The position numbers were made by a program, and so were the translations under genes. The notes beneath the pieces were generated by a model. It saw only the letters and a program-made list of their open reading frames with translations, was not told where the DNA came from and did not search any database. Below are positions 91-58,102 of a stretch of DNA of 64,000 nt, one piece after another. Every line of letters begins with the position of its first letter. Within the stretch, counting starts at the first letter, position 1. Location of the stretch: the NCBI RefSeq assembly GCF_003610235.1, contig NZ_RAPR01000001.1, positions 6,138,001 to 6,202,000 on the forward strand, read 5' to 3'. Source of the DNA: Catellatospora citrea. GTDB lineage: Bacteria > Actinomycetota > Actinomycetes > Mycobacteriales > Micromonosporaceae.

Positions 91-134
91 GTTCAGTCGT
101 CGTCAAGTAATCCTCCACTGATCGTGACTAACGT
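91..134 (+). promoter_or_regulatory. SARP-type operator/promoter of SARP gene 1
   Basis: Three heptamers, GTTCAGT (91-97), GTCAAGT (102-108) and CTCCACT (113-119), are separated by 4 nt each, and a -10-like TAACGT (129-134) follows the last one after exactly 9 nt. Direct heptamers at 11-bp spacing just upstream of the -10 are the known layout of SARP-activated promoters. Transcription would start near 141, leaving a leader of about 180 nt before the GTG at 320, in which I see no other gene. The site is almost the same as the one before SARP gene 2 (39886-39929). Confidence 0.8.
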
Positions 135-319
135 TGTCAGGTATTGACCTGATGAAGCTGGTTGCCGTGCTCGGTTCGAGCGTGTCGGTGCCAGCTCGCA
201 GCAGACGACGCCTACCGGCGGATCTGTGTGGAGGACTCGTGTGATCCGTACGGAATCGGTCGGCGGCCGAATCCGCGATCCGTGGGAGCGCTACCGCCGA
301 CCGACATGAAGGAATCTGT

Positions 320-3300
320 GTGACCCCAGCCGTCCAGCGTTCCCCGACCAGTGCTGAGTTAGACACCGACGGCACGGTCCGCCTGCAGATCATGGGTCCA
401 CTGCGGGTATGGCGGGGCCGCGTCGAACTGGACACCGGTCCGCGTCAGCAGCGACGCCTGCTGGCGCTGCTGACGGCACGGGTCGGGCAGACGATCAGCA
501 TGGCGGACCTGGTGGACTCGCTGTGGGGCGACGACTGCCCGCCCAGCGCGATCAACGTCATCCACAAGTACATCGGGGCGCTGCGCCGGGTACTGGAGCC
601 GGCACTGCCCGCGCGGACCTCCGGGTCATACCTGGTGCGCAGCGGCAGCGGGTACCGGTTCACGGCCGGTCCGCAGACACTGGACCTGGTGGCGTTCCGC
701 CAACATGTCACCGAGGCCGAGGCAAACGTGCGCCAGAACCAGCCACGGGAGGCGCTGGCCTCCTATGTCGAGGCGCTGCGGCTGTGCCAGGGCAAGGCGG
801 GTGACGGGCTGGCCGACAGCGCCACGGTCAATGCCGTGTTCGCGGGCCTGAACGGGGAGTTCTTCGACGCGGTGGTCGACGCCGCGGACATCGCCGTCCC
901 GCTGGGCGAGCCCGCCCGGGTCCTGTCGTCGCTGCGGCTGGCCGCGGAGATGGACCCGTTTCACGAGCTCGTCCACGCGTGCCTGGTCACCGCCCTGGCC
1001 GCGGCCGGTCAGCAGGCCGAGGCGCTGACGGTGTTCCAGACGGTCCGTCAGCGCCTGGCCGAGGACCTGGGCATCGATCCGGGACACGCGCTGCAGGAGG
1101 CGCAGCGCCGAGTGCTGACCCAGACGGCGGCACGGCCCGCCCCCAATCCGACCGCTGCCGCGGCGCCGCTGGTCGCGGGGGCGCCGCTGGTACGTCCGGC
1201 GCAGCTGCCGCCGGACCTGTCGTGGTTCGTCGGCCGTTCGGCAGAGCTGGCGCTCCTGCAGGGACTGGTGGCGGGGATGCATGACGGTGAGCGCGGCGGG
1301 CCGCTCGTGGTAGCCGTCGACGGCATGGGCGGGGTGGGCAAGTCGACGCTGGCGGTTCACTTCGCACGGCAGGTCGCCGACCGGTTCCCCGACGGCCAGC
1401 TGTACCTCGACCTGCAAGGCGACCAGAACGACGGGACAGTCCACGCCGCCGATGCGCTGCGATCACTGCTGTTCGCCCTCGGCGCGCCCGCCGCGCATCT
1501 GCCCGACACCTTCGACGCCCTCGTCGGCAAGTATCGCAGCATGACCGCGGGCAAACGGTTTCTCGTCCTGCTCGACAACGTGCGGGACTCGGCCCAGGTC
1601 CGGCCACTGCTGCCCAACTGCGCCGACAGCCTTGTCCTGCTCACCAGCCGACGTCCCCTGCTCGGACTGGCGGCCTTCGACGGAGCCCACCTGTTCCGGC
1701 TCGCAGTGCCCAACCTGCATACCGCCCGCCAACTCCTTGAGCGGCGACTGCCCACCTCGGCCGGCGACACCGCGCTCGCCGACGAAATCATCGAACTCTG
1801 CGGCCGGCTGCCGCTGGCGCTGGCGGTGCTGGGTGCCCGCCTCACCGCCCGTCCCGCGCTGTCGCTGGCCGCCGTCGCCGCCGACCTGCGCGACGGCGCG
1901 CGACGGCTGGAAGCCTTCCCCGGCGACGCGGGCACCCGCGATCCGCGTACTGCGTTCTCGTGGTCCTACCACCAACTCAGCCCCGGTGCCGCGCGCATGT
2001 TCCGGCTGCTGTCAGTGTCGTTGACCGCCGGAATCACGGTGGCGGCCTGCGTCAGCCTCTCCGGGCTGGATCCGATGCGCACGCGCGCTGAACTCGACGA
2101 ACTCACCGAGGCCGCGCTCATCACCGAACAGGAAGAGGGCCGGTTCAGCTCCCACGTCCTGGTGAAGTCCTACGCCGGCGAGCTGTTCGGTGAGATCGAC
2201 CCGCCGCACGAGCAGCGTGCGGCAATCACCCGCCTGCTGGAGCACTATCTGCACAGCGGCTTCAACGCCCAGACCGTGTACACGCCGCACCGTCTGTCCA
2301 TCCCGCCTCCGCCACCCCAACCGGGCGTCACCCCCGAGCAGCCCGCCACCTTCGAGCAGGCCGGGGCCTGGTTCTCGGCCCATCACGAAGTTCTCGTCGA
2401 GGCCGTCCGCCTCGCGGCCGATGTCGACCATGGTGTCGCCCCTTGGCGGTTCGCCCTGATCATGCAGCACTATCTGCAGTGGGCTGGCTACTTCCAGGAC
2501 TGGGAGGACGTCACGCGCTGGGCGGTACGCGCCGCCCGTGCCACCGGCGACGAGATCGGCCAGGGACATGCTCTGCGCAGCCTCGCCGGTGCCCGATGGT
2601 CGCTTCGCGCCAACGACGAGGCCCTCCGCCTGCTCCACGCCGCACAGGAGATCTTCCACAAGCACGGCATGCTGCTGGAGCAGGCAGTGACCCACGTGAA
2701 CATGCACTGGGTCCACGAAGCACTGGGTCAGGACGAGCAGGCGCTGGCCCATGGCCGCCAGGCGCTGGACCTATACCGCGGCCTCGACCACCGCCGAGGT
2801 GTCAGCTTCAGCCTCATGTCCAGCGGCCGGTCGCTGTCGCGGCTCGGTCGGCTCGACGAGTCGGCCGAGCTCCTGAACCAGGTACTCGAGATCGTCGACC
2901 AGCTCCGCAGCGAACCGAACGCCGATACGGACATCCAGCGGATCGCGCTGGAAGCCGAGACCCGCATGGCTGTCGCGGCGAACCTCATCCGGCAGGGCCG
3001 CGCCGCCGACGCGGCCGCACAACTCGAACTGTCGGCGCGGTTGTCGGACCAGGTCAACCAGCGGACCAACCAGTTCGAAGCACTGCGCCAGCTCGCCGAA
3101 GTACGGGCGTCGACAGGAGACACGGCGGGTGCCGTCGAGGCGCTCGACAGCGCCCGGATGGTGCTGGACAGGTTCCCCGACGGTGGGCCCGACCATCTGC
3201 GTGCGCGGTTCGTCCGCCTGGCCGAGGAGTTGTCGGAGATTACCGCCGACACACAGGGTGATGATCCGCCAAAGTCCCCGAATGATCCCGGCACCGCTAC

Positions 3301-3325
3301 CGATGAGTTGCGGCCGCGCCGGTGA
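320..3325 (+). CDS. SARP-family regulator with NB-ARC and TPR domains (SARP 1)
   Basis: A 1001-residue transcriptional activator of the AfsR type. An OmpR-like winged helix spans about residues 28-112 and a bacterial transcriptional activation domain about 119-265. An NB-ARC ATPase follows, with Walker A GMGGVGKST near 335, Walker B FLVLLDN near 414 and a GRLPLAL motif near 496. TPR-like helices fill about 720-975. Proteins of this family bind heptameric direct repeats and recruit RNA polymerase, usually at secondary-metabolite genes. GTG 320 is chosen because AAGGAA lies at 309-314. Its own promoter carries such repeats, so autoregulation is likely. A paralogue, colinear along its whole length, lies at 40109-43048. 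No biosynthetic cluster is visible, so its targets are inferred only from operator sites. Confidence 0.93.
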   Translation: MTPAVQRSPTSAELDTDGTVRLQIMGPLRVWRGRVELDTGPRQQRRLLALLTARVGQTISMADLVDSLWGDDCPPSAINVIHKYIGALRRVLEPALPARTSGSYLVRSGSGYRFTAGPQTLDLVAFRQHVTEAEANVRQNQPREALASYVEALRLCQGKAGDGLADSATVNAVFAGLNGEFFDAVVDAADIAVPLGEPARVLSSLRLAAEMDPFHELVHACLVTALAAAGQQAEALTVFQTVRQRLAEDLGIDPGHALQEAQRRVLTQTAARPAPNPTAAAAPLVAGAPLVRPAQLPPDLSWFVGRSAELALLQGLVAGMHDGERGGPLVVAVDGMGGVGKSTLAVHFARQVADRFPDGQLYLDLQGDQNDGTVHAADALRSLLFALGAPAAHLPDTFDALVGKYRSMTAGKRFLVLLDNVRDSAQVRPLLPNCADSLVLLTSRRPLLGLAAFDGAHLFRLAVPNLHTARQLLERRLPTSAGDTALADEIIELCGRLPLALAVLGARLTARPALSLAAVAADLRDGARRLEAFPGDAGTRDPRTAFSWSYHQLSPGAARMFRLLSVSLTAGITVAACVSLSGLDPMRTRAELDELTEAALITEQEEGRFSSHVLVKSYAGELFGEIDPPHEQRAAITRLLEHYLHSGFNAQTVYTPHRLSIPPPPPQPGVTPEQPATFEQAGAWFSAHHEVLVEAVRLAADVDHGVAPWRFALIMQHYLQWAGYFQDWEDVTRWAVRAARATGDEIGQGHALRSLAGARWSLRANDEALRLLHAAQEIFHKHGMLLEQAVTHVNMHWVHEALGQDEQALAHGRQALDLYRGLDHRRGVSFSLMSSGRSLSRLGRLDESAELLNQVLEIVDQLRSEPNADTDIQRIALEAETRMAVAANLIRQGRAADAAAQLELSARLSDQVNQRTNQFEALRQLAEVRASTGDTAGAVEALDSARMVLDRFPDGGPDHLRARFVRLAEELSEITADTQGDDPPKSPNDPGTATDELRPRR

Positions 3326-3424: not shown

Positions 3425-3457
3425 AGGAAGTGTCTGTCAAGTCGCCTTGCCTAGCGT
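3425..3457 (+). promoter_or_regulatory. SARP-type operator/promoter before KARI-like gene
   Basis: AGGAAGT (3425-3431), 4 nt, GTCAAGT (3436-3442), 9 nt, then the hexamer TAGCGT (3452-3457). It is nearly the same as the site before the hemerythrin gene (21109-21141), including the sequence just around the heptamers. The predicted start is near 3464, giving a leader of about 125 nt. It would serve the 3589-5853 gene group. Confidence 0.8.
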
Positions 3458-3588
3458 GATCTTTGCCAGCGCAGCGAGGCGCTGCTACCACAACGACACC
3501 GCCCGGCGGCCGCGAGCGCCAGCAGTCAGCGCGCATGTCGCTCTCGCCCGCGTCGAGCCTTCCCGAACTACGAGGTGAACACACCATC

Positions 3589-4302
3589 GTGTCCATCAGG
3601 GTCTACTACGACAACGACGCTGAGCTGTCCTTCATCCGGTCACGGAGGATCGCGGTGATCGGCTTTGGCGAGCAGGGCCAGGCCCACGCATTGTCACTCA
3701 GGGACTCGGGCGTCGAGGTGACGGTTGGGCTGCGGCCGGGCTCGCCCAGCCGGTCCCGGGCCCAGGATTGCGGGCTGGATGTGCGCGACCCCGCGGTGGC
3801 GGCGGCATGGGCAGACGTGATCATGGTGCTGGTACCCGACGTCGCGCATCGCGCCCTGCATGCACAATCGATCGCGCCGCACCTCACTCCCGGCAAGATG
3901 CTGCTGATAGGCAACACCCTCGCCGCACGGTACGGACTGATCAAAGTCCCGCCGCAGGTGACACTGGCACTGATCGCCCCGAACGGCCCGGGGAACCTGG
4001 TCCGCGAGCAGTATCTGGCCGGAGGCGGGGTGCCGTGCCTTGTCTCCATCGGGCACAACCCCACCGGTGACGGCCTCGCACTCGCTCTGTCGTATGCGAA
4101 GGCGATCGGGGCCACCCGCTCCGGCGTCGTCGAGGTCGACTTCAGGGACGCGATAATGATCGGCCTGTACGGTGAGCGAGTGCAGGCCGCAGGTGGCACC
4201 GCGGCACTGGTGCGTTCGAAATTCGCATTGCTGAACCACACCGCCGCTTCGGCCGACTGGACCTGTGACCGCAAGCCGCCCGGCGACCAGATCCGCCAAT
4301 GA
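3589..4302 (+). CDS. Truncated ketol-acid reductoisomerase-like protein, probably non-catalytic
   Basis: The 237 residues align closely with the first two thirds of the intact IlvC in this window (55331-56341, 336 aa). The NADPH-binding GFGEQG motif and the Rossmann fold region are kept. The catalytic loop GHGFN of IlvC is IGNTL here, so the His is lost. In the metal site TDLFGEQ becomes IGLYGER, losing the Asp but keeping the Glu. The knotted C-terminal domain, normally about 140 residues, is missing after a short unrelated tail. GTG 3589 matches the IlvC start. An upstream in-frame start at 3463 lies at the predicted transcription start and is less likely. The ATGA overlap with the next gene implies translational coupling. 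It is probably a repurposed NAD(P)-binding protein; decay is also possible, although the frame is open and regulated. Confidence 0.85.
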   Translation: MSIRVYYDNDAELSFIRSRRIAVIGFGEQGQAHALSLRDSGVEVTVGLRPGSPSRSRAQDCGLDVRDPAVAAAWADVIMVLVPDVAHRALHAQSIAPHLTPGKMLLIGNTLAARYGLIKVPPQVTLALIAPNGPGNLVREQYLAGGGVPCLVSIGHNPTGDGLALALSYAKAIGATRSGVVEVDFRDAIMIGLYGERVQAAGGTAALVRSKFALLNHTAASADWTCDRKPPGDQIRQ

Positions 4303-5091: not shown

Positions 5092-5853
5092 ATGCCCATC
5101 AACGTCGACATGATCTGCAATGCTTGGTCGCACGCGTTCTACCGCGTCTGCGAAGCGACGCCCGACGGCTGGTGCGCCAAGCGGGGCGAGGTCAGGGCGG
5201 GCGTGACCAGGGTCCCGACTTCGTCACTCAACGTGGCGTGGAGCATGGCCCCTGATCCCGACCTTGCGGCGCTGGACGAGCTGGCCACCCGCGTCAGTGA
5301 GTTCGGCGTGCCGTGGTCGATCATCGTTCGAGGCTCGGCAGGCGGGGCCGTCGCCGACCTGGCTGCCCGGCACGGCCTGACCACGCGCGGGGAGAGGCCG
5401 TTCATGGTCTGCCCGGCCGACGACGCGGTGTTGCGCGCCGACGATTCGCGGCAGGCGCTGATCCGGCCGGTCGGGGCGCAGTCGGCCGACTCCTATACGG
5501 CTGCCCTGACCACGGGCTTCGAGGTGCCCGATGGCTTCTTCGGTTCGCTGATGGGCGGGGGAGTGCTCGATGCGCCGGACATGACCGGTTACCTGGCCGA
5601 AGAGGCGGGCGAACTGGTCGCGACCGGCTTCGGCATACGCGGTGGCGGCGGGTTGGCCGTATTCAACATCGCCGTGGTGCCACCTGTCCGCGGCCGAGGT
5701 CTCGGCCGGGCGATGACCGCGCGGGTGGTTGCCGACGGCTTCGCCGCCGGCGCCGAGGCTGCGTATCTGAATCCGTCGGCAGCCGCGCAGCCGCTGTATG
5801 AGTCGATGGGCTTTCGCGTAGTCGAGTCATGGGCAGTGTTCACGGCGTCCTGA
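5092..5853 (+). CDS. GNAT-family N-acetyltransferase, paralogue of 34933-35700
   Basis: A 253-residue protein with a C-terminal GNAT domain. The acetyl-CoA loop RGRGLGRA near residue 199 follows the strand FNIAVVP, and a typical C-terminal YESMGF motif is present. The N-terminal 120 residues form a second, divergent half. It is similar along its whole length to the protein at 34933-35700, including SLN near residue 45, PDLAALDELAT and the end YESMGFR. It starts 82 nt after the previous stop with a GGAG ribosome site, and it is probably cotranscribed with the KARI-like gene. A strong hairpin follows it. The substrate is unknown. Confidence 0.88.
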   Translation: MPINVDMICNAWSHAFYRVCEATPDGWCAKRGEVRAGVTRVPTSSLNVAWSMAPDPDLAALDELATRVSEFGVPWSIIVRGSAGGAVADLAARHGLTTRGERPFMVCPADDAVLRADDSRQALIRPVGAQSADSYTAALTTGFEVPDGFFGSLMGGGVLDAPDMTGYLAEEAGELVATGFGIRGGGGLAVFNIAVVPPVRGRGLGRAMTARVVADGFAAGAEAAYLNPSAAAQPLYESMGFRVVESWAVFTAS

Positions 5854-8029: not shown

Positions 8030-8749
8030 TCAGCCGCCGACCCCGTCACACGGATCGAGCAGCCAGCCCCGGGCACACTGATCGGCGAAACCCGCCGGTC
8101 CGAGCACCGCCAGCGTCGTGTCACGTACGGCGGCCAGGTCGGCCACGGCATCGGGGTCGGGTACGTGCCCCAGCGCGGCAAAAGCGCTCTCCGCGGCGCC
8201 GGTCATCCGTGCGGCCCTGACGTGGTCGCCCGCCGCCGACGCCAACGCGGCGTCAGCCACACAGACGTAGGGCACGAGGTCGTCCCAGCCGTTGCGGAAC
8301 ACCCCCTCGCGGCAGGCCGCGAACAGCTCCTTCGCTGCGTCGAGATTGCCAAGTCCCAGTTCGCAGAAGGCCAGATCGTGGTACTCGGAGTGCACGCCCT
8401 TGATCTGGTTGAGGGCCTCGTTGAGGGCGATGTTCTCCCGGTACAGCTCACGGGCCCGGGTCAGGTCGCCCGAGATGCGCGCTACGCTGGCCAGCACATG
8501 CCGGGGCCGTTCCTCCAGGCCGCGGTCGCCCGCCCGCAGTGCGACGGCGAGCCCGTGGCGTGCCTGGTTTGCGGCGGCGCGCAGGTCGCCGCGGCGCAGG
8601 GCGACCCGGGCCAGGTTGTAACGGGCAGAGACCTCGCCGTGCGCGTCGCCGACGGCACCTGCCCTGACGATCTCCGCCTTGCTCATGGTCACCACGGCCT
8701 CGGTTTCACCCCGCCGGAATGCCAGGTGCACCTTCTCGCTGAAACTCAT
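8030..8749 (-). CDS. Orphan TPR protein 1
   Basis: A 239-residue, all-helical protein of TPR-like repeats without a DNA-binding or enzymatic domain. Paralogues lie at 43166-43894 and 54007-54795. All three share a RPRHVLA/RPRLVLA helix, YHDLAFCELGLGN-like and GWDDLVPY motifs, and an end of the form AARM..A..AFAALG followed by PDP. That end resembles the C-terminal TPR segments of large ATPase regulators (LAL/SARP), so it may be a detached sensory or partner module; this is inference. The ATG at 8749 is preceded by GAGGA. The gene has its own SARP-type promoter (8815-8847). Confidence 0.8.
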   Translation of the reverse strand: MSFSEKVHLAFRRGETEAVVTMSKAEIVRAGAVGDAHGEVSARYNLARVALRRGDLRAAANQARHGLAVALRAGDRGLEERPRHVLASVARISGDLTRARELYRENIALNEALNQIKGVHSEYHDLAFCELGLGNLDAAKELFAACREGVFRNGWDDLVPYVCVADAALASAAGDHVRAARMTGAAESAFAALGHVPDPDAVADLAAVRDTTLAVLGPAGFADQCARGWLLDPCDGVGG

Positions 8750-8814: not shown

Positions 8815-8847
8815 AACCTATCCCGGACAAGTTGACAAACTCTTCCT
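8815..8847 (-). promoter_or_regulatory. SARP-type operator/promoter of TPR gene 1
   Basis: On the minus strand: AGGAAGA (8847-8841), 4 nt, GTCAACT (8836-8830), 9 nt, TAGGTT (8820-8815). The spacing is the same as at the other sites. The predicted start is near 8808 and the leader about 60 nt. It lies back to back with the sigma-gene site at 8892-8935. Confidence 0.75.
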
Positions 8848-8891: not shown

Positions 8892-8935
8892 CTTACTTCG
8901 GCGTCAAGAAAAACTTCCTTGGCCTCGCCTAACTT
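8892..8935 (+). promoter_or_regulatory. SARP-type operator/leaderless promoter of sigma gene
   Basis: CTTACTT (8892-8898), 4 nt, GTCAAGA (8903-8909), 4 nt, CTTCCTT (8914-8920), 9 nt, TAACTT (8930-8935). The hexamer ends 7 nt before the ATG at 8943, so transcription should start at or next to that ATG and give a leaderless mRNA. The heptamers are more degenerate than in the SARP genes, but spacing and hexamer agree. Confidence 0.7.
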
Positions 8936-8942: not shown

Positions 8943-9890
8943 ATGCCGTTGATCAAGCCCGCGCCCGCCTGTCCGGTCGGCGAGAACGAACGGATCATCC
9001 GGGCCGCCCAGCGAGGCGACCCGGACGGGTTCGCCGCGTTGTTCGCGCACCACTACGACGGAATGCGGGCGGTCGCCAGCAAGATCATGGGCCCCGGTCC
9101 GGATGCCGAGGACGCCTGCCAGAACGCCGCGGTCGCGGCGCTGCGCCGGATCGGCGAACTACGTGATCCCGCCGCGGTGCGGCCATGGCTGCACGCGATC
9201 GTGCGCAACAACTGCCGGATGGCCCTGCGCTCGAACAGGCCCATGCCCGTCGACCTCGACGACGTCGAACTGCCCGCATCCGACGCGGTCGACCCGCTCG
9301 AGCACGTCGAGCGCGGCGCCCGCCGCGATTGGGTGTGGCACGCCGTGGGCCGCCTGTCGCCGACCCTGCGGCCGGTGACGATGCTGCGCTACTACACCCA
9401 GGGCGCCACATACGAGCAGATGGCGACGTTGTGCGACATCCCGGTCGGCACCGTGCGCAGCCGCCTGAGCGAGGCCCGGCGCCATCTCGCCACGGTCCTG
9501 CCTCGCGCACTCGACGACCGGCACGGCGACGCCGCCGCACTATCCGACCGGCGCCGAGCCGAAGCCACGGCGATCCTGTCCGCGCTCGCCGACGGCACGG
9601 CCCCACAGGCGGCATTCAGGCGCTGGAGGCACGACGTGGCCGTCGTATGGCCCGACGGACGGCGCACGGCGGGGCTCGACTCGCTGATCATGACGATCGA
9701 GCGTGACTTCGCTGCCGGCCCGTCACATCAACTTGCCTCGGTGGCCGCCAGACCCGAATTCACCATCTGGGAAATAGAGTTCAACTGGCCGCAGGGCAGC
9801 CCGGAGCACCGTCCGCGGTCGGGGATCTGGCTCCTGCACGAACGCAACGGGATGGTGCACGAGGCCCGGTTGGCCTACGCCGAACACTGA
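8943..9890 (+). CDS. ECF-type sigma factor with SnoaL/NTF2-like C-terminal domain
   Basis: A 315-residue sigma factor. Region 2 spans about residues 15-85 (IIRAAQRGDPDGF start, DAEDACQNA motif) and region 4 about 130-185 (LSPTLRPVTMLRYY, TYEQMA, GTVRSRLSEAR). A further 110 residues resemble an NTF2/SnoaL fold (WPDGRRTAG, GIWLLHERNG). Such fused tails are known in ECF41/SigJ-like groups, where they tune activity without a classical anti-sigma factor. ATG 8943 agrees with the predicted leaderless promoter; the in-frame TTG 8919 lies inside the operator. It ends 42 nt from the convergent acetyltransferase, whose promoter looks ECF-like. Confidence 0.9.
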   Translation: MPLIKPAPACPVGENERIIRAAQRGDPDGFAALFAHHYDGMRAVASKIMGPGPDAEDACQNAAVAALRRIGELRDPAAVRPWLHAIVRNNCRMALRSNRPMPVDLDDVELPASDAVDPLEHVERGARRDWVWHAVGRLSPTLRPVTMLRYYTQGATYEQMATLCDIPVGTVRSRLSEARRHLATVLPRALDDRHGDAAALSDRRRAEATAILSALADGTAPQAAFRRWRHDVAVVWPDGRRTAGLDSLIMTIERDFAAGPSHQLASVAARPEFTIWEIEFNWPQGSPEHRPRSGIWLLHERNGMVHEARLAYAEH

Positions 9891-9931: not shown

Positions 9932-10687
9932 TCAGGCCGGAAGTGCGAACAGCCGGTAGCGCGACACGGTCTCGAACCCCAGACGCCGGTACACCGGCTC
10001 GCCGTCGCTGCTCGCCTGCAGCGTGGCGACCGTCCGGCCACTCTGCCGGGCGATGCGCAAAGCCTCCAGGGTCAACGCCGTGGCGATGCCGCGACGCCGG
10101 TACTCGGGAGCGGTGGCGACGCAGAAGATCCCGGCTACGTCGGTGCCCAGCGACAGGGCGCAGGTGGCGACGGTCCCCCCGTCGACGATGCCCGCCAGCC
10201 GGACCACGTCGAGGTAGCCGAAGTCGAGCTCCCGCTCGACCACGGGTTTGAGGTCGTCAGGGTCGAACCCCAGCGGCTCGGCGTACGCCTGGACGTACTC
10301 CTCCATCTCAGCCCGGCCGCCCACCGTCCTGATCTTCAGATCGGCCGGTGTGACGGGGTCCGTGAATGTCGTGATGTCGATGGCCATCACCGGCAGATCG
10401 GCGACTTGCTGGGCACCGTGTGCCAGCAGTCCTTCGGCAGTGCCGTGGTCGCTGTCGGCGCCGACCCACCAGAGCCACTGGGTGCCGTCGAGCCGACGCT
10501 TCGCGTCCTTGATCGCGGCGTCCAGCGGCTGGTTGCGGACCCGCAGGACCCCGTTGAGCATGCCGTGAGCGACGTTGGAGCGGTAGAGCGTCAGATCGGC
10601 GGTGGGATCCGCGCCCGCCCAGCCTGTCCAGTACCGGCGGTTCGCCGCGAGCTGCGGTTCCAGTTCGTGGAGGGATTCTGCTGTCAT
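9932..10687 (-). CDS. GNAT-family N-acetyltransferase, paralogue of 35870-36622
   Basis: A 251-residue protein with a C-terminal GNAT domain whose acetyl-CoA loop reads YRRRGIATAL near residue 193. It is highly similar to the protein at 35870-36622 over its full length, sharing AANR.YW.GWAGADP, HGMLNGVLRVR, WWVGADSD, YAEPLGFD and SSDGEPVYRR. ATG 10687 matches the start of the paralogue and abuts a conserved promoter, suggesting leaderless translation. The N-terminal half is typical of a two-lobed GNAT-like family of actinomycetes. The substrate is unknown. Confidence 0.9.
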   Translation of the reverse strand: MTAESLHELEPQLAANRRYWTGWAGADPTADLTLYRSNVAHGMLNGVLRVRNQPLDAAIKDAKRRLDGTQWLWWVGADSDHGTAEGLLAHGAQQVADLPVMAIDITTFTDPVTPADLKIRTVGGRAEMEEYVQAYAEPLGFDPDDLKPVVERELDFGYLDVVRLAGIVDGGTVATCALSLGTDVAGIFCVATAPEYRRRGIATALTLEALRIARQSGRTVATLQASSDGEPVYRRLGFETVSRYRLFALPA

Positions 10688-10695
10688 ACCTACAA

Positions 10696-10723
10696 GACTG
10701 TGCCGACCTGGCAGAAGTTCGAT
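10696..10723 (-). promoter_or_regulatory. ECF-like leaderless promoter of acetyltransferase gene
   Basis: On the minus strand ATCGAACTTC (10723-10714) contains GAACTT, which is followed after 16 nt by GTC (10698-10696); the ATG lies 8 nt further on. The paralogue at 35870 has the identical ATCGAACTTC exactly 26 nt before its ATG. GAAC-type -35 and GTC-type -10 elements with 16-nt spacing fit ECF sigma factors. Assignment to the neighbouring sigma factor is inference. Confidence 0.55.
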
Positions 10724-10887
10724 CCTGCCGCGGGATGGGTTCGCTGTGCGTGCCAGGCCGTCGAGGCGGTGGTCAGCCCGGTGACGAAAGTTCGTGAACT
10801 GCCGACTGGGCTGCCGGCGCGTGATCCACACTTGGGGCAGGCGCGGTCGTACGCCGTCGAGGTCGGTCCGACAACGGGGACCGAGCC

Positions 10888-20629: not shown

Positions 20630-20673
20630 GTCCACTAATCATCAAGTATGCGTTCAGTCGCACGCGATAAGTT
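20630..20673 (+). promoter_or_regulatory. SARP-type operator/promoter of small secreted protein gene
   Basis: GTCCACT (20630-20636), 4 nt, ATCAAGT (20641-20647), 4 nt, GTTCAGT (20652-20658), 9 nt, TAAGTT (20668-20673). These are the heptamers of the SARP gene promoters in a different order. A fourth, weaker TGTCGAG (20619-20625) continues the 11-bp register. The predicted start is near 20680, about 70 nt before the ATG. Confidence 0.8.
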
Positions 20674-20748: not shown

Positions 20749-21150
20749 ATGGAGCGACGTTTCCTTCTCAAAGGCGCGGCCGCCATGGCCGTTGCGGGTG
20801 CGCTGACCCTAATTCCTTCGGCCGCTCAGGCGGCACCGTTGAGGTGTCAGCCGGGCTATGTGTGCATCCGCGAAAACCTGAACCTCCGGAAAAGCGTTAC
20901 CGTCCTGCCGAACGGCTCCGCGTCTTCTGTGATCAACCTGACCGACGAGACCGTCTGGTTCCACGAACACGGGGACTACAACAGGACCACATCCGGTCGC
21001 GCGCACGGGGTCAGCCCCGGCCGTCGGGCCAATTGCGGTGAGTTCGAGGGCCTCCAGTTGCCATCAGTGCTCGTCGGGTGCCTGACGAGCGGATTTCCGC
21101 TGCTGGCGAGGAAGTTTCTGTCAAGTCGCCCGGCTTACCTTGGTGCCTGA
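20749..21150 (+). CDS. Small secreted Cys-containing protein (peptidase-inhibitor I36-like)
   Basis: A 133-residue precursor. Residues 1-28 form a Sec signal peptide (MERRF, hydrophobic core, AQA cleavage near 27). The mature part starts with CQPGYVCIRENLNL, which resembles secreted actinomycete proteins of the I36 inhibitor family, and it has four Cys in all. ATG 20749 is chosen for the signal peptide; GGGAG precedes it. The last 14 codons overlap the next operator (21109-21141), so the C-terminus may have been altered when that site arose. Its own promoter carries three SARP-type heptamers. The function is unknown beyond the family resemblance. Confidence 0.75.
   Translation: MERRFLLKGAAAMAVAGALTLIPSAAQAAPLRCQPGYVCIRENLNLRKSVTVLPNGSASSVINLTDETVWFHEHGDYNRTTSGRAHGVSPGRRANCGEFEGLQLPSVLVGCLTSGFPLLARKFLSSRPAYLGA
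21109..21141 (+). promoter_or_regulatory. SARP-type operator/promoter of hemerythrin-like gene
   Basis: AGGAAGT (21109-21115), 4 nt, GTCAAGT (21120-21126), 9 nt, TACCTT (21136-21141). It is close to the site at 3425-3457. It lies inside the 3' end of the secreted-protein gene. The predicted start is near 21148, about 100 nt before the ATG at 21252. Confidence 0.8.
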
Positions 21151-34642: not shown

Positions 34643-34701
34643 GAACGAGACTCCCTGAGATGGCCGACCGCACTGGTCGACGGTCGGCAACGATGCGCCC
34701 G

Positions 34702-34838: not shown

Positions 34839-34932
34839 CGACACGGTCGGCGGCCCGTCGCGGTGACGATGTCGCGGTGCGGCCGCCATTCATCGATCAG
34901 AACTCCGATCCGTCTTGACCAGGGAGCGCCAG

Positions 34933-35700: not shown

Positions 35701-35833
35701 GCGGCCTCCGCCTTTCGGCTCAAGCCCTCGATCTGGTCGCGACCCCGCACCGCGCCCCGGTGACCGCACGATCGAAGCTCATCACCGATGAGGGATTCAC
35801 CACAGGGGCGCGGCACGATTGTCTGCCGCGACG

Positions 35834-35861
35834 ATCGAACTTCCCCGCGCCGCACACAATC
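35834..35861 (+). promoter_or_regulatory. ECF-like leaderless promoter of acetyltransferase gene
   Basis: ATCGAACTTC (35834-35843) contains GAACTT, followed after 16 nt by ATC (35859-35861). The ATG at 35870 starts 8 nt later. Element positions relative to the ATG are identical to those before the paralogue (10696-10723), while the spacer between them is not conserved. Confidence 0.55.
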
Positions 35862-35869
35862 GTGTAGTC

Positions 35870-38097: not shown

Positions 38098-38098
38098 C

Positions 38099-39733: not shown

Positions 39734-39797
39734 AGCTCTTCTCCTTATATCGCGAGATACCGCGAGTCAGTGAAGAAGAGTAGGAACAGGCGGTGAA

Positions 39798-39830
39798 AAG
39801 GTACTTGACGCGACTTTACAGACACTTATG
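39798..39830 (-). promoter_or_regulatory. SARP-type operator/promoter of acyl-AMP ligase gene
   Basis: On the minus strand: CATAAGT (39830-39824), 4 nt, GTAAAGT (39819-39813), 9 nt, TACCTT (39803-39798). The predicted start is near 39791, about 58 nt before the GTG. It faces the SARP 2 site 55 bp away. Confidence 0.75.
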
Positions 39831-39885: not shown

Positions 39886-39929
39886 GTTCAGTCGTTGTCA
39901 AGTCGTCATCCACTGGCCGCCGCTAGCGT
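39886..39929 (+). promoter_or_regulatory. SARP-type operator/promoter of SARP gene 2
   Basis: GTTCAGT (39886-39892), 4 nt, GTCAAGT (39897-39903), 4 nt, ATCCACT (39908-39914), 9 nt, TAGCGT (39924-39929). The first two heptamers are identical to those before SARP gene 1, and the third differs by one base. The predicted start is near 39936, with a leader of about 170 nt of similar length to that of SARP 1. Confidence 0.82.
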
Positions 39930-40108
39930 CCTCAATGGACTTCTGCTGACCGGGGCGCACCCACGAGGACTGGCGGTTAGGGCTCTCCGTTGCGACCGGG
40001 AGGCGCGTTTCCCTGCGCCATTCGGGAACGCAACACGTGTGCGTGCCGGCGGACGGGACCCGTTCTCCACCAGTACGCACCAGGTGGAACGACCCTAAGG
40101 AACATGGT

Positions 40109-43048
40109 GTGACCGCAGCAGCCCGCCAATACCCGGCCGGTGCCGATCCGGGGCCGCAGAATCCTCACTTGCTCCGCATGCAGATCATGGGCCCGCTGCG
40201 AGTCTGGCGGGGCGAGGCAGAACTCGATACGGGTCCTCGGCAGCAGCGCTGCCTGCTGGCGCTGCTGATGGCGCGCGTGGGACAGCCCGTCAGCATGACC
40301 GACCTGATCGCCCTGCTCTGGGGCCAAGACTCCCCGGCGAGCGCGGCCAACGTCATACAGAAGTACATCGGCGCGCTGCGCCGCGTCCTCGAGCCTGGTC
40401 TGCCGGTGCGAACCTCGGGGTCCTACCTGCTGCTCGACGGTAGCGGCTATCGGTTCACCGCCGGCCTGAACACCCTCGACCTCATCGCGTTCCGCCATCA
40501 CGTCACGGCGGCGACGGCGAGCGCAGACCGGGAAGAACTCCGGCAGGCGCTGAACCACTACATCGACGCCCTGCGGCTGTGCCGCGGCACCGCGGGGGAC
40601 ACACTGGCCGACAGCCCCGCCGCGATCGCGGTTTTCGCCGCCATCGACGAGGAGTTCCTCGAAGCGGCCGTCAACGCCACCGAGATCGCCATTCGACTGC
40701 GTGAGCCGACCTCAGTCCTGTCTCCGCTGCGGCTGGCAGCAGAGATGAACCCGTTCCACGAACGGGTCCACGCGAGCCTGGTAGCCGCGCTGGCCGCGTC
40801 CGGCCAGCAAGCCGAGGCGCTAACGGCGTACCGGAGGATCCGAGAGCGTCTCGTCGACGAGTTGGGCATCGATCCCGGCCATGCCTTGCAGCGTGCCTTC
40901 CGGCAGGTGCTGGCCCAGCACGACATCGAATCGCCGAGCGCGGTCGCGGCGACGGTCGACGAGTCCGAGGTTCCCGGGGTCCGGCCGGCGCAGCTGCCGC
41001 CGGACCTGTCGCTGTTCGTCGGGCGTTCGGCCGAGCTGGCTGCGCTCAGTGACCTGGTCGCCGGTATGCGCGACGGCGAGCGGGGCGGCCCGCTGGTGGT
41101 GGCGATCGACGGCATGGGCGGGGTGGGCAAGTCGACCCTGGCAGTTCACTTCGCGCGCCTGGCCGGAGACGAGTTCACCGACGGCCAGCTCTACCTCGAC
41201 CTCCACAGCGATCACGGCGACAGCGAGAGCGGCCGGGTCGGCGAGGCTCTACGGTCCCTGTTGTTGGCGCTGGGCGTGCCTTCCTCCACCCTGCCTGACA
41301 CTTTCGACGCCCGCATGGGCAAGTACCGCAGCCTGACCGCCGGCAGGCGAATCCTGGTGCTGCTGGACAATGTCCGCAACTCCGCGCAGGTGCGCCCGCT
41401 GCTGCCGAACTCCGCGCAAAGCCTGGTGCTGGTAACCAGCCGGCGGCCGCTGCTCGGGCTGGCCGCCTTCGACGGCGCGCACCTCCTGCGCGTGCAGGTG
41501 CCAGACCTCCCCTCGGCACGGCAGCTGCTGGAGCGTCGGCTCGCCGGGGCGGTACACCGGACCATCATCACCCCCGACAGCGCGGCTCTCGTGGACGAGA
41601 TCGTCGAGCTGTGCGGCCGACTGCCGCTGGCCCTGGCGGTGCTGGCGGCACAGCTGGCCGTCCGGCCCACGCTCACCTTGGCCTCGGTCGCCGCCGACCT
41701 GCGTGACGGCGCACGCCGGCTGCAGGCGTTTCCCGGCGGCACGGACACCCCCGATCCGCGCACCGCCTTCTCCTGGTCGTACCAGCAGCTGACGACCAGC
41801 GCGGCCAGACTGTTCCGGCTGTTGTCGGTGTCGCTGGGCCCGGGCATCACCGTGGCGGCCTGCGCCAGCCTCTCCGGCAGCGACGCCGCCGCCACCCGTG
41901 CGGAGCTCGACGAGCTGATCGAGGCTGCGCTCGTCACCGAGCACGAGCATGGCCGCATCACCTCCCACATGCTGGTCAAGGCGTACGCGCACGAACTGTT
42001 CATCGACACCGAGCCGCTCCACGAGCAACGCGACGCCGTCAGCCGGCTACTCCAGTACTACCTGCACGGCAGCTTCCACGCCCAGGCGGTGCTCGCCCCT
42101 CACCAGCTGCCGTTCAAGCCTGCGCCGCCGCTGCCGGGCGTCGTGCCCGACCAGCCGGCCACTTTCGAGCAGGCTGTCTGCTGGTTCTCCGGTCAGCGCG
42201 AGGCGCTCATCGACGCGGTCCGGGTCGCCGCCGAACTCGGGTTCGGAATCGTGCCATGGCAGCTGGCCGTCACCATGCAGCAGTACTTGCAATGGTCAGG
42301 CTATTTCGAAGACTGGGAAGACGCCATGCGCCATGCGCTGCGGTCCGCCCGGGACAGCGACGATGAGATCGGTCAGGCCCACGTCCTGCACAGCCTCGGC
42401 GGAGCCCGCAGGTCACTGGGTGCCGACGACGAGGCACTCGACCTGCTCACCGCCGCATTGCACATCTTCGACAGCCACACCATGCGTCTGGAACAGGCGC
42501 TGGTCCACAGCGACCTGCACGCGGTGCACGAGGCGCTCGGCGACGACCACCAGGCCCTCGCCCACAGCCAGGAAGCGTTGACGCTGTACCGGGCGCTCGA
42601 CTACCGCCAGGGCGTCCCGCTCGGCCTCATGTCCAGTGGCAGGTCGCTGGCCCGCCTCGGCCGGCTGGAAGAGTCGGCCGAGCTGCTCAACCTGGCGCTC
42701 GAGCTGCACGCGCAGACCTCCGGCTCGGACGCCACGTCGATCGCGGCGGAGGCCGAGATCCGGATCGCCGTCGCCGCCGACCTCGCTCGGCTCGGCCGCA
42801 TCCGCGAATCAGCTGAGCAGCTCGAACTGTCAGCACAGCTGGCAGGGCAGACCGGACACCGGCCCCACCGATTCGAAGCGCTACGCCAACTGACCGAGCT
42901 GTTGCTCGCAGCCGGGGACCTGGCCGGCGCAAGTGAGGCGCTGAGCAGGACGCGGGTGGCGCTCGCGGCCTTTCCCGACGGAGGGGCGGCCCACCTGCGG
43001 GCGGAACTCGCCGACCTGACCGCGAAAGTATCTCCCCGCCGGCGATGA
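40109..43048 (+). CDS. SARP-family regulator with NB-ARC and TPR domains (SARP 2)
   Basis: A 979-residue regulator, colinear with and highly similar to SARP 1 (320-3325) over winged helix, BTAD, NB-ARC and TPR parts. Walker A GMGGVGKST lies near residue 335, Walker B ILVLLDN near 412 and GRLPLAL near 500. In the DNA-binding domain GPRQQRCLLALLMARVGQPVS is close to its counterpart in SARP 1, so both may read the same operator. GTG 40109 follows AAGGAA and matches the SARP 1 start. The orphan TPR gene 2 follows after 117 nt. Autoregulation is implied by its promoter. Confidence 0.94.
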   Translation: MTAAARQYPAGADPGPQNPHLLRMQIMGPLRVWRGEAELDTGPRQQRCLLALLMARVGQPVSMTDLIALLWGQDSPASAANVIQKYIGALRRVLEPGLPVRTSGSYLLLDGSGYRFTAGLNTLDLIAFRHHVTAATASADREELRQALNHYIDALRLCRGTAGDTLADSPAAIAVFAAIDEEFLEAAVNATEIAIRLREPTSVLSPLRLAAEMNPFHERVHASLVAALAASGQQAEALTAYRRIRERLVDELGIDPGHALQRAFRQVLAQHDIESPSAVAATVDESEVPGVRPAQLPPDLSLFVGRSAELAALSDLVAGMRDGERGGPLVVAIDGMGGVGKSTLAVHFARLAGDEFTDGQLYLDLHSDHGDSESGRVGEALRSLLLALGVPSSTLPDTFDARMGKYRSLTAGRRILVLLDNVRNSAQVRPLLPNSAQSLVLVTSRRPLLGLAAFDGAHLLRVQVPDLPSARQLLERRLAGAVHRTIITPDSAALVDEIVELCGRLPLALAVLAAQLAVRPTLTLASVAADLRDGARRLQAFPGGTDTPDPRTAFSWSYQQLTTSAARLFRLLSVSLGPGITVAACASLSGSDAAATRAELDELIEAALVTEHEHGRITSHMLVKAYAHELFIDTEPLHEQRDAVSRLLQYYLHGSFHAQAVLAPHQLPFKPAPPLPGVVPDQPATFEQAVCWFSGQREALIDAVRVAAELGFGIVPWQLAVTMQQYLQWSGYFEDWEDAMRHALRSARDSDDEIGQAHVLHSLGGARRSLGADDEALDLLTAALHIFDSHTMRLEQALVHSDLHAVHEALGDDHQALAHSQEALTLYRALDYRQGVPLGLMSSGRSLARLGRLEESAELLNLALELHAQTSGSDATSIAAEAEIRIAVAADLARLGRIRESAEQLELSAQLAGQTGHRPHRFEALRQLTELLLAAGDLAGASEALSRTRVALAAFPDGGAAHLRAELADLTAKVSPRRR

Positions 43049-43165: not shown

Positions 43166-43894
43166 ATGAGTTTCAGGGAGAAGGTGCGCTTGGCCTTCAG
43201 CAGAGGCGACAACGATGTCGTGGTGCGGTTGAGCGAGGCCGCGATCGACAGAGCGCGGGCGACCGGAAACCTGGCGGACGAGGTGGAGGCCCACTACAAC
43301 CTTGCCCGCGTCGCGCTGCGCGATGACGACCTGCCCCGTGCCACAGCCCTGGCCCGGGAGGGGCTCGCGGTCGCCCTGCGCTCAGACGACAGGGGTCTGC
43401 AGGAACGGCCGAGGCACGTGCTCGCCGCAGTGGCCCGGATGTCGGGAGACCTTGCCCGCTCCCGGACTCTCTACCAGGAGCTCATCCTCCTCAACGAGGC
43501 ACTTGAACAGCCGAAACTCGCCCACACCAACTATCACAACCTCGCCTTCTGCGAGGTGGGGCTGGGCAATCTCGACGTTGCTCGGACGCTGTTCGCCGCG
43601 TGCCGCGAGCGTGTGTTCCGCCACGGCTGGGACGACCTGGTGCCGTACGTCTACATGGCCGCCGCCGCCGTCGCGTCGGCCGAGGGTGACCACCCGAAGG
43701 CGGCCCGCATGATCGGCACGGCGAACGAGGCGTTCGCGGCGCTGGGCCAGGTGCCCGATCCCGATGACGCGGCGGACCTCGACACCGTGCGTGACGCGGC
43801 GATCCGGGCGCTCGGTCCGGCAGGCTTCGCCGACCAGTGTTCACAGGGCCAGCTTCACCACTCCGACACGGCATTCGACAACGGCGTTCGCTGA
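43166..43894 (+). CDS. Orphan TPR protein 2
   Basis: A 242-residue helical TPR protein, paralogue of those at 8030-8749 and 54007-54795. It shares MSF.EKV.LAF at the start with protein 1, then ARVALR, RPRHVLA.VARMSGDL, NLAFCE.GLGNLD, FRHGWDDLVPYVYMA and the end LGPAGFADQC. There is no catalytic or DNA-binding motif. AAGGAAG lies upstream of ATG 43166. It is placed directly after a SARP gene, supporting a role as a partner of these regulators (inference). Confidence 0.82.
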   Translation: MSFREKVRLAFSRGDNDVVVRLSEAAIDRARATGNLADEVEAHYNLARVALRDDDLPRATALAREGLAVALRSDDRGLQERPRHVLAAVARMSGDLARSRTLYQELILLNEALEQPKLAHTNYHNLAFCEVGLGNLDVARTLFAACRERVFRHGWDDLVPYVYMAAAAVASAEGDHPKAARMIGTANEAFAALGQVPDPDDAADLDTVRDAAIRALGPAGFADQCSQGQLHHSDTAFDNGVR

Positions 43895-53820: not shown

Positions 53821-53853
53821 GGTAAGAATCTGTAAAGTCATCTGTCTTAACGT
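53821..53853 (+). promoter_or_regulatory. SARP-type operator/promoter of TPR gene 3
   Basis: GGTAAGA (53821-53827), 4 nt, GTAAAGT (53832-53838), 9 nt, TAACGT (53848-53853). It resembles the sites at 8815-8847 and 39798-39830. The predicted start is near 53860, with a leader of about 145 nt. Confidence 0.75.
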
Positions 53854-54006: not shown

Positions 54007-54795
54007 ATGAATTATGCCGAGAGGGTGGATGCGGCCTACCGCAGAGGCGAAATCGACGTCGTGGTGCGCATGAGCCAGGCCGAGATCGAGCGGACGCAGC
54101 AGGAAAGCGACCCGACGAGACGCGTCATCGCACTGTTTTCCCTGGCCAGGGTCGCCTTGCGCGACGGCGACCTGCAAGGCGCAGCGGATCGGGCTGAGGA
54201 AGCACTCGCGGTCGCCCGACAGTGCGCGGATCGGAGTCTGGAGGAGCGGCCCCGGCTCGTGCTGGCCGCGGTGGCGCGGATGACGGGCGACCTGGCCCGC
54301 GCCCGAACCCTGTTCTGGGAGTGCATCGCGTACAACCAGGGACGCGGCCGGCCCAAACTCGTCTACGCGCAGTATCACAACCTCGCGTTCTGCGAACTCG
54401 GTCTCGGTGACGTGGACTTGGCGCGATCACTGTTCGCCGAAAACCGCCTGCGGGTGTTCCAACAGGGCTGGGACGACCTCGTGCCGTATGTCTGTGTCGC
54501 CGACGCCGCCCTCGCCTGCGCTGAGGGCGACTACCTGCGGGCGGCGCGTATGGTCGGCGCGGCGGACAGCGCGTTCGCGGCACTGGGCCATGTGCCCGAT
54601 CCCGACGACATGGTCGACCTGGCCGCCATTCGTGCGACAGCGGTCGCGGCGCTCGGCCTTCCCGACTTCAACGCCCACCGCGCCCAGGGCCACCTGCTGC
54701 ACCCGCGGACGATGTTCGATGTCGGTCGACGATTCGATGACGATCGACACGTTGACTTCCACCCCCCCGAGGCTCAAGTGTCGTCCCGCAGGTGA
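54007..54795 (+). CDS. Orphan TPR protein 3
   Basis: A 262-residue TPR protein, third paralogue of the set. It shares VVVRMSQAEIER, ARVALRDGDLQGAA, RPRLVLAAVARMTGDLARAR, YHNLAFCELGLGD and GWDDLVPYVCVADAAL with the proteins at 8030 and 43166, plus a 25-residue basic/acidic tail of its own. ATG 54007 follows GAAGGGATG. It has a SARP-type promoter and sits downstream of the giant gene. Confidence 0.82.
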   Translation: MNYAERVDAAYRRGEIDVVVRMSQAEIERTQQESDPTRRVIALFSLARVALRDGDLQGAADRAEEALAVARQCADRSLEERPRLVLAAVARMTGDLARARTLFWECIAYNQGRGRPKLVYAQYHNLAFCELGLGDVDLARSLFAENRLRVFQQGWDDLVPYVCVADAALACAEGDYLRAARMVGAADSAFAALGHVPDPDDMVDLAAIRATAVAALGLPDFNAHRAQGHLLHPRTMFDVGRRFDDDRHVDFHPPEAQVSSRR

Positions 54796-55308: not shown

Positions 55309-55330
55309 ACACCTATGGGAGAGGAAAGTC

Positions 55331-56551
<1,221 letters not shown>

Positions 56552-56828: not shown

Positions 56829-57803
56829 TCATCCCGGCGCCTGTCCCGGGAGCACCAGTTCGGCGAAGACCGGCAGATGATCAGTGCCGTGGAGATCGAG
56901 TACGCGGAAGTCGGCGATGCCGACGCGCTGTTCGGCCAGCACCCGGTCCAGCGCCACCGGCGGAATGAGGTCCCCGCCGTACGGGCCCCAGGTCCCGACC
57001 AGTCCGTGGCCGGTCACATCAGCGGCGTCCCGGTAGCCGGAGCCGATCAGATCACGCAGCAGGTGGTGGTCGAGGGAGCTGTTGAAGTCACCGAGCAGCA
57101 CCCGCGCCGGCCCGCTGGGCCTGGCTGGCGGCTGGTTGCCGTATCCACCGGCCCACAAGGGCGTGCCGGCCTTCACCCACGGCGCCTGCAGGTGCACCGA
57201 CTCGACAAGGACGACGCCGCCGTCCGGCATGTCCAGGATGGCGCGAGCCTGCCGCCACCCGCCCGGGTTGATGCGCACCCCGTTGTTGCGCAGCGGCACC
57301 CGGGACAGCACCGCCGAACCCGAGGCGTCCGGCGTCGAATAATCGACCCGGTGCGGCAGCAGCTCCTTCAGCCCGGCCGCGTCGGCCTCGGCCAGGAACT
57401 CGGGGGACACCTCCTGCAGCGCCAACACGTCGATGCGGTGTTCGCGGACCAGCGCGACGAGTTCGCCGGACACTGCCGAACCTCGCCACACATTCGCCGT
57501 CAGCACCCGCAGCCGCGGTCCGGCGGCTCCCGCGAGCGGATCGGGGTCGGGGAGGCCGCGCGGCAGCACGACCGCGGCCAGCACCGCCACCGCCAACCCG
57601 GCCAAACACGCCGCAGCCCAGCGCCGCCACCACAACAGGGCGAGCAACGGCAGCATCCCGCCCAGGGTCATATACGGCGTGAAAGTGACCAACTGGGCGA
57701 CCGGATAGCGGGTGTCCCACCCGGCCAGCCGCACCAGCGCCCACGCTGCCGCAGGCAGGGCGGCCAGCCACGGCAACACCCATCGTCGCAGAACCTGACT
57801 CAT
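56829..57803 (-). CDS. Membrane-anchored endonuclease/exonuclease/phosphatase family protein
   Basis: A 324-residue protein with three N-terminal transmembrane helices (about residues 9-27, 37-58 and 62-82) followed by an EEP domain. Motifs TANVWRG near 101, LALQEVSPE near 129, LLGDFNSS near 235 and GTDHLPVFAEL near 307 supply the usual Asn, Glu, Asp and His of the metal-dependent active site. Substrates in the family range from DNA to phospholipids and inositol phosphates. ATG 57803 has GAAGAGGA upstream. The SARP-type promoter at 58070-58102 gives a leader of about 260 nt; the frame is open up to 58043, so a longer form is possible. Confidence 0.87.
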   Translation of the reverse strand: MSQVLRRWVLPWLAALPAAAWALVRLAGWDTRYPVAQLVTFTPYMTLGGMLPLLALLWWRRWAAACLAGLAVAVLAAVVLPRGLPDPDPLAGAAGPRLRVLTANVWRGSAVSGELVALVREHRIDVLALQEVSPEFLAEADAAGLKELLPHRVDYSTPDASGSAVLSRVPLRNNGVRINPGGWRQARAILDMPDGGVVLVESVHLQAPWVKAGTPLWAGGYGNQPPARPSGPARVLLGDFNSSLDHHLLRDLIGSGYRDAADVTGHGLVGTWGPYGGDLIPPVALDRVLAEQRVGIADFRVLDLHGTDHLPVFAELVLPGQAPG

Positions 57804-58069
57804 GAAATCCTCTTCCCGGGGACTGCCGGACCGTGCCGACGGCAAACCGCGCGTTCGGCTGCGGTCGAGAAACGTCACCGACAGTCGCCGACCCGAGATC
57901 AGGCGTCGTTCGTCAGGAAGCGTCACCGTAGCCCGCACAGGCGGTCGCAGTATCGGCCGCCCAGCAGTCCATGCCACCGGGAGAACCGAAATCCGCCGAG
58001 CGCAATCACCCTCCGGCGGAATGTGTGACCATCCGGCCGTCACCCGCGCATGCGTTCGATGACGGGGCC

Positions 58070-58102
58070 AACCTAGTCAGGGCCACTTTACGACGACTTG
58101 AT
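58070..58102 (-). promoter_or_regulatory. SARP-type operator/promoter of EEP gene
   Basis: On the minus strand: ATCAAGT (58102-58096), 4 nt, GTAAAGT (58091-58085), 9 nt, TAGGTT (58075-58070). Both heptamers occur at other sites in the window. The predicted start is near 58063. The rest of the 57804-58380 gap shows no gene. Confidence 0.75.

Follow-up and report, generated by a model that had tools for sequence, protein, structure and literature searches.

A 64,000-nucleotide stretch of the Catellatospora citrea genome (contig NZ_RAPR01000001.1, positions 6138001-6202000, within 9.33 Mb; referred to here as the window) carries eleven direct-repeat sites that are very probably the operators of one AfsR-like subfamily of “large” SARPs, regulators that would drive scattered promoters of a recurrent gene set and activate their own genes as well. 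The sequence comparisons strongly support a SARP regulon, because the sites have the geometry known for SARPs, stand before both SARP genes of the window and recur in other genera next to SARPs from this subfamily, and because they lie mostly in non-coding DNA and require exact spacing. The protein family, the repeat spacing and the place beside the -10 box are already known. As far as the open-licence literature reaches, the operator of this subfamily, its scattered targets without polyketide synthase (PKS) or nonribosomal peptide synthetase (NRPS) genes in the window, and its conservation while gene order changes are new.

All eleven operators were found at the positions, on the strands and with the geometry that a sequence-only reading of the window had claimed for them. 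Site-by-site inspection gave the same layout in each case, i.e., heptamer, 4 nt, heptamer, 9 nt and a hexamer TAnnnT, with an extra upstream heptamer in register at four sites (91, 8892, 20630, and 39886). An 11-bp period and 9 nt to the hexamer agree with the rule reported for SARPs, according to which direct repeats are 11 or 22 bp apart and the 3′ repeat lies about 8 bp from the -10 box; the difference between 8 bp and 9 nt is a matter of which base is taken as the last of the repeat. With a 33-column matrix built from the eleven sites (the window’s matrix), leave-one-out scores range from 15.8 to 35.6 bits, and the window holds 11 matches of at least 14 bits versus 0.1 per shuffled window. 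The eleven had originally been picked by eye, and the stronger tests are those on DNA that the first reading had not seen.

A search with SARP2, the second large SARP of the window, found relatives in 22 of 354 genomes of the same family, belonging to four genera (E ≤ 1e-180; two candidates were scored per genome, so that copies are undercounted and SARP1 is absent from the list). Across 32 SARP loci of these relatives (619739 bp), the window’s matrix yields 82, 74, 62, 43, 32, 22, and 14 matches at thresholds of 12, 14, 16, 18, 20, 22, and 25 bits, compared to 4.8, 1.6, 0.6, 0.2, 0.2, 0.2, and 0 in shuffled sequence, and 20 column-permuted matrices give means of 4.6, 1.85, 1.0, and 0.1 at the four lowest of these thresholds. 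When the spacer columns are blanked, the 4/9 spacing produces 66 matches of at least 16 bits in the same loci and each of 24 other spacings at most 6. The sites also avoid genes: 84 of 90 sites of at least 14 bits, taken from relatives’ and own loci, lie outside called coding DNA (5′ ends trimmed) and six within it, versus 74.5% of the DNA being called coding (binomial p 1.5e-42, a value that treats sites as independent, which those of related genomes are not). The pattern is therefore not equally frequent inside coding DNA, one of the outcomes that the sequence-only reading had named as refuting it. A second matrix, built from 62 sites of other genomes that were themselves found with the window’s matrix (the relatives’ matrix), scores the eleven window promoters at 18.7–36.7 bits, the maxima of 20 shuffled windows being 6.0–16.1.

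Among the 34 BTAD matches in the genome, three large SARPs are set apart: SARP1 (320..3325, plus strand, 1001 amino acids), SARP2 (40037..43048, plus strand, 1003 amino acids) and SARP3, which is encoded outside the window, about 116 kb past SARP2 (6297020-6299962, minus strand). They are 64–69% identical (64% for SARP1 and SARP2) and form one clade in the tree (support 100/99). In SARP1 and SARP2, PF00486 and PF03704 match above cut-off, indicating an N-terminal OmpR-type winged helix followed by the BTAD, as do NB-ARC and TPR_12, which mark the C-terminal nucleotide-binding and TPR parts; their best PDB matches are AfsR and EmbR. The recognition helix reads (H/Q)KY(I/V)GxLRR throughout the subfamily, with A or S replacing G in a few members, compared to VHRH(I/V)GxLRR in the sister group and more divergent helices in other SARPs. 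Three-heptamer operators precede both SARP genes of the window, at 91..134 for SARP1 (plus strand; GTTCAGT/GTCAAGT/CTCCACT, hexamer TAACGT) and at 39886..39929 for SARP2 (plus strand; GTTCAGT/GTCAAGT/ATCCACT, TAGCGT; 31.6 bits with the relatives’ matrix), and SARP genes in four other genomes (G071, G033, G256, and G296) have a three-heptamer form similar to that of SARP1 upstream. The subfamily comprises 34 known genes (33 from the search, plus SARP1), 30 of which were examined for an operator: 16 have a site of at least 14 bits upstream, versus 0 of 26 other SARP genes and 0 of 431 shuffled intervals.

The operator is also linked to particular candidate target genes, among them that of an ECF-type sigma factor (8943..9890, plus strand; longest open reading frame (ORF) from 8919). 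Its best start codon candidate is the ATG at 8943, 7 nt past the hexamer of a three-heptamer operator at 8892..8935 (plus strand; 18.7 bits with the relatives’ matrix, which also applies to the scores of window sites given below unless stated otherwise). The neighboring TPR protein (8030..8749, minus strand, 239 amino acids) is best read as starting at the ATG at 8749, so that its own operator (8815..8847, minus strand; AGGAAGA/GTCAACT, TAGGTT; 26.3 bits) and that of the sigma gene both fall within the divergent intergenic region. Sixteen close relatives of the sigma factor, including the one described here, were separated from the rest by a drop in score between 287 and 254 bits; nine of them (this one included) have an operator of at least 13 bits and eight one of at least 18 bits, compared to none of the 14 distant relatives examined (loci L188-L201; best 10.3 bits), with a Fisher p of 0.0009 at a threshold chosen after the scores had been seen. 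Thirteen of the 16 fall in the 22 SARP-positive genomes out of 354 (p 1.5e-15), and a fourteenth (G070) has a SARP of the subfamily at the edge of its locus (L178). Sigma factor and SARP are divergent neighbors, with a GNAT gene alongside, in several genomes. In the window, a type B GNAT gene (9932..10831, minus strand), for which an own operator was not found, follows the sigma gene, which it adjoins in several relatives too.

TPR genes, of which this genome has six copies, form a second group of predicted targets. Operators of 28.8–35.9 bits precede three copies, i.e., 8030-8749, the gene at 54007 (54007..54795, plus strand; operator at 53821..53853, plus strand, GGTAAGA/GTAAAGT, TAACGT, 20.3 bits with the relatives’ matrix) and one beside SARP3, and a 14.1-bit site precedes a fourth; none was found before the copy that follows SARP2 (43166..43894, plus strand) or before a distant copy (L149, 56103). 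In other genomes, 0 of 29 TPR loci examined has an operator (best 2.2 bits), none of these 29 being among the SARP loci fetched, and TPR genes within SARP loci L138 and L140 do have operators (30.0 and 35.3 bits). In Paractinoplanes durhamensis (C13), one operator is followed in succession by the SARP, an alpha/beta hydrolase-TPR fusion and a GNAT gene. Genes that are apart here, several with their own operator, thus lie together elsewhere. The fused kind forms an ORF cluster in five genomes with a median of 519 amino acids, the fusion being Pfam-checked in P. durhamensis. The idea that the orphan TPR proteins are broken-off SARP tails was set aside, the TPR protein of a relative being fused to the alpha/beta hydrolase. 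In the window, the alpha/beta hydrolase whose relative is the fused one in P. durhamensis (33797..34690, minus strand) has an operator at 34702..34734 (minus strand; ATCAAGC/GTCCACT, TACGGT; 27.6 bits).

For the fatty acyl-AMP ligase-like enzyme (38099..39733, minus strand), the claimed operator is present (region 39777..39830, minus strand), but its register, given as 39798, is disputed: the relatives’ matrix prefers an overlapping register 21 nt downstream (GTCAAGT-4-TTTCACC-9-TACTCT; 24.0 versus 17.7 bits), and the window’s matrix the original one (31.8 versus 9.5 bits). Relatives of the enzyme occur in L116 (59% identity) and L138 (64%). The L116 relative has an upstream site of 28.1 bits whose distance to the called ORF is about 440 nt, the L138 relative one of 21.4 bits. 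A gene for a ketol-acid reductoisomerase (KARI) N-domain-only protein without the KARI C domain (3463..4302, plus strand, start codon uncertain) has a strong operator (3425..3457, plus strand; AGGAAGT/GTCAAGT, TAGCGT; 32.2 bits), the full-length copy having none, and KARI genes are found in four relatives’ loci, one of them with an operator. The full-length gene (55331-56521, minus strand) is 97.9% identical to a second copy at contig position 5282182 and looks like a recent duplicate, and with this identity and no operator, a function as self-resistance copy was dropped as an explanation. Further window sites precede a 154-amino-acid ORF without a Pfam match (20686-21150; three-heptamer operator at 20630..20673, plus strand, GTCCACT/ATCAAGT/GTTCAGT, TAAGTT, 29.2 bits), a hemerythrin-domain protein (21252..21944, plus strand, longest ORF from 21078; operator at 21109..21141, plus strand, AGGAAGT/GTCAAGT, TACCTT, 26.4 bits, nearest start 21252) and an endonuclease/exonuclease/phosphatase-family protein (56829..58043, minus strand; operator at 58070..58102, minus strand, ATCAAGT/GTAAAGT, TAGGTT, 32.6 bits). 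The site at 21109 overlaps the 3′ end of the 154-amino-acid ORF, which is itself doubtful. Two weaker sites had also been proposed: the one at 34806..34838 (plus strand; GTCAACT/GTCAACA, CATCAT), before a type A GNAT gene (34915..35700, plus strand), gains from the relatives’ matrix (23.8 bits) but not from the window’s (7.6 bits), and the one at 43056 was dropped, with 7.8 bits by the window’s matrix and no place among the matches of at least 9 bits by the relatives’ matrix. In relatives, genes behind sites of at least 17 bits include three further ECF sigma genes, MFS transporters, a glycosyltransferase, an AMP ligase, a small LuxR-type regulator, PNPOx-like proteins, an M36 peptidase, a peptidase inhibitor and a cupin-like protein (below Pfam’s cut-off).

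For frames of at least 80 codons behind the 90 sites, ATG codons peak 6–8 nt past the hexamer (3, 11, and 4 cases, 18 in total), with at most two at any other distance up to 59 nt. This peak fits transcription starts at about +7 after the hexamer and, as it coincides with the expected +1 place, many of the messages would be leaderless. Leaderless messages are ordinary in actinomycetes, with 22.2% reported for S. avermitilis (PMC8780764).

Similar to the window’s SARPs, AfsR of Streptomyces coelicolor, for which structures with the afs box are available (PDB 8HVR, 8JKE, 8K60), is a large SARP with winged-helix, BTAD, nucleotide-binding and TPR parts, and acts at 11-bp direct repeats beside the -10 box; its known target is the regulator gene afsS (PMC10936776; PMC10972967). 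In the reported structure, one SARP occupies each 11-bp repeat, side by side and beside the -10 box, and residues T88 and R92 contact bases (PMC10936776). However, the relation is distant (phmmer E 2.5e-26 over the first 300 residues), R92 aligns with A and T88 with K in the window’s SARPs, and the heptamer is GTCAAGT-like here versus CGTT(T/C)ATCGNN for AfsR. SARP2 also falls below the cut-off of the NCBIfam AfsR equivalog NF053617 (372.8 versus 1430 bits) and is not classed as an AfsR orthologue, and AfsR acts on the adjacent afsS, whereas the window’s SARPs would act on many scattered promoters. Operators of PimR-type SARP-LAL proteins likewise have three heptamers with 4-nt spacers (PMC10972967), but PimR activates the pathway regulator gene pimM, and the SARPs described here have NB-ARC and TPR parts instead of the LAL part. 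PapR2/RedD-type SARPs (consensus GTCAGSS) share heptamers starting with GTCA and 4-bp spacers, but are described as activators of biosynthetic clusters (PMC7040171), none of which is seen in the window.

On the model of AfsR, heptamers spaced 11 bp apart, just upstream of the -10 hexamer, would be occupied by two or three SARP molecules side by side, which might recruit RNA polymerase and so take the place of a good -35 box. Transcription would begin about 7 nt past the hexamer, leaving messages such as that of the sigma factor leaderless, and the three-heptamer operators before their own genes would place SARP1 and SARP2 under positive autoregulation. The predicted targets are a recurrent set consisting of the ECF sigma factor, TPR and hydrolase-TPR proteins, the fatty acyl-AMP ligase and KARI or a KARI-like protein, with GNATs in the same neighborhoods. 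In relatives, this set often lies near the SARP, partly in one operon; here it would occur in multiple copies across about 157 kb, with a separate operator for many of the units.

How far the regulon extends was assessed in about 12% of the genome (about 1.08 of 9.33 Mb, made up of the 64-kb window, 340 kb on its flanks and 680 kb in distant pieces), a sample in place of the whole-genome scan that had been proposed. The 120 kb downstream (L015-L020) contain five matches of at least 14 bits with the window’s matrix, two of which score near 29 bits, whereas shuffles give 0.3. Three clear sites lie outside the window, 6–93 kb away (18.3, 28.9, and 28.8 bits with the window’s matrix): 6207751, 7 nt before the start of a DUF885 protein (20.8 bits with the relatives’ matrix), 6267671, before a TPR protein of another family (31.2 bits), and 6295091, before a TPR protein of the window’s family (33.7 bits). 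With the same threshold and the window’s matrix, the 160 kb upstream gave a single match (14.4 bits), and none was found in the 60 kb past 6.322 Mb, in 160 kb surrounding other BTAD genes at eight places, or in six other and twenty more 20-kb pieces; the relatives’ matrix found nothing above 15.0 bits in the 680 kb of far pieces. Two borderline sites on the plus strand, at 6016413 (L078 18413; 18.6 bits with the relatives’ matrix) and, before a further BTAD gene, at 6132091 (L014 14091; 16.5 bits), lie upstream of the span of clear sites. Next to SARP3, the second TPR gene (L019 14986, minus strand) is preceded by a site that was not counted as clear, as it scores 14.1 bits with the window’s matrix and is absent from the matches of at least 13 bits with the relatives’ matrix. 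The clear sites spread over about 157 kb (6.138-6.295 Mb), and “dispersed”, the term of the sequence-only reading, holds for this span, but is limited by the absence of sites above 15 bits in the 680 kb sampled elsewhere.

Several observations weigh against a regulon of this kind. Recovery of the window sites by the relatives’ matrix is partly circular, which makes it a check of consistency and not a fully independent test. Fourteen of the 30 subfamily SARP genes examined, including that of SARP3 (5.6 bits), have no site of at least 14 bits, and several sigma factor and SARP promoters in one genus (g23) score low, three sigma promoters of that genus retaining TAGCGT with an ATG 6 nt on. The matrix scan finds no site before the full-length KARI gene, GTG starts show no peak comparable to that of ATG, and a site of 18.6 bits was found in the flanks beyond the 157 kb, with about 12% of the genome scanned. 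Finally, SARP-ATPase hybrids near some relatives’ SARPs have a similar recognition helix, and more than one protein could therefore use such sites.

An alternative with a real, if smaller than even, chance of being correct is that the SARP is the pathway-specific activator of an unusual, scattered biosynthetic pathway, in which the acyl-AMP ligase, KARI, the hydrolase and the GNATs, together with the glycosyltransferase and MFS exporter of relatives, make and export a small molecule. SARPs are described as mostly controlling biosynthesis (PMC10972967), an acyl-AMP ligase is present here, and in relatives MFS transporters, a glycosyltransferase and a further AMP ligase also stand behind operators. 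However, ketosynthase, condensation and carrier-protein domains are absent from the 36 window proteins scanned (genes beyond the window were sampled only), in agreement with the claim that PKS and NRPS genes are lacking; operator-led genes include hemerythrin, phosphatase/nuclease-family and TPR proteins, several ECF sigma factors, a peptidase and a peptidase inhibitor; and the gene arrangement around the SARPs varies between genomes. It is quite improbable that another OmpR- or PhoP-like regulator using 11-bp direct repeats, rather than SARP1, SARP2 or SARP3, binds the sites. Such a regulator would have a precedent in the common site of AfsR and PhoP at afsS (PMC10972967), and the number of BTAD matches in the genome leaves room for one, but the sites cluster near SARPs that have a single conserved recognition helix in common and are found neither before the 26 other SARPs nor in the far DNA sampled, and, of the 36 window proteins scanned, the two SARPs alone matched Trans_reg_C. 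That the repeats are ordinary -35/-10-like promoter sequence or compositional chance, as their selection by eye from one window and the -10-like hexamer might suggest, is scarcely credible given the counts against shuffles and permuted matrices in other genomes, the spacing specificity, the depletion in coding DNA and the lack of sites above 15 bits in 680 kb of the same genome.

The sequence-only reading is thus partly supported: strongly for a SARP regulon, and within limits for a dispersed and undescribed network. No description of a dispersed SARP regulon, or of such a network in Actinoplanes or Micromonosporaceae, was found in the titles and abstract beginnings of the open-licence literature, which fits the word “undescribed”, but there is a third close SARP paralogue beyond the window, and the unusual non-PKS/NRPS pathway retains the chance given above. 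A bolder version of the favored regulon, which we consider rather unlikely as a whole, is that this SARP subfamily of Micromonosporaceae self-activates a standing, non-antibiotic regulon that grows by joint duplication of SARP and targets, with the copies gaining operators; the ECF sigma factor would form a second tier, and induced TPR proteins might act back on the TPR sensor part of the SARP, closing a feedback loop. SARPs are taken to indicate antibiotic clusters and serve in the search for them. If the SARP regulon is real, a subfamily with a precise operator, scattered targets and relatives in four genera would show SARPs in a different kind of role. For each gene, the matrix predicts whether it is a target, where its transcription starts and whether its message is leaderless; it would either stop genome miners from mistaking such SARPs for signs of hidden clusters or point them to an unusual pathway.

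Some further features of these loci deserve mention. Genes combining a SARP part with a LAL-like ATPase part occur beside large SARPs in L121, L122, L123, L125, L126, and L129; the L123 hybrid, the only one checked by Pfam, has BTAD and AAA_16, with no LuxR domain listed. In 24 loci of other SARPs in the genus (130815 bp), the window’s matrix gives two matches of at least 14 bits versus 0.1 in shuffles, with GTCCAGT-like repeats. A triple GTCCAGT (L042 1077, minus strand) and ATCCAGT/GTCCAGT (L037 4303, plus strand), which also have the 11-bp period, lie near SARPs of another subfamily and are perhaps its operator. The window also encodes a type A GNAT at 5092..5853 (plus strand), with relatives in SARP loci of other genomes and no own operator found, and a type B GNAT at 35819..36622 (plus strand) that is 70% identical to 9932-10831. 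A 3159-amino-acid open frame at 44290-53769 (plus strand) has a weak, below-cut-off WXG100-like N-terminal match and N-terminal relatives in L016 and L017. In L138, from another genus, a glutamine-synthetase-like protein (73-1089, plus strand), whose gene adjoins an ammonium transporter near the SARP region, is 88% identical to window positions 19126-20145, which is unusually high.

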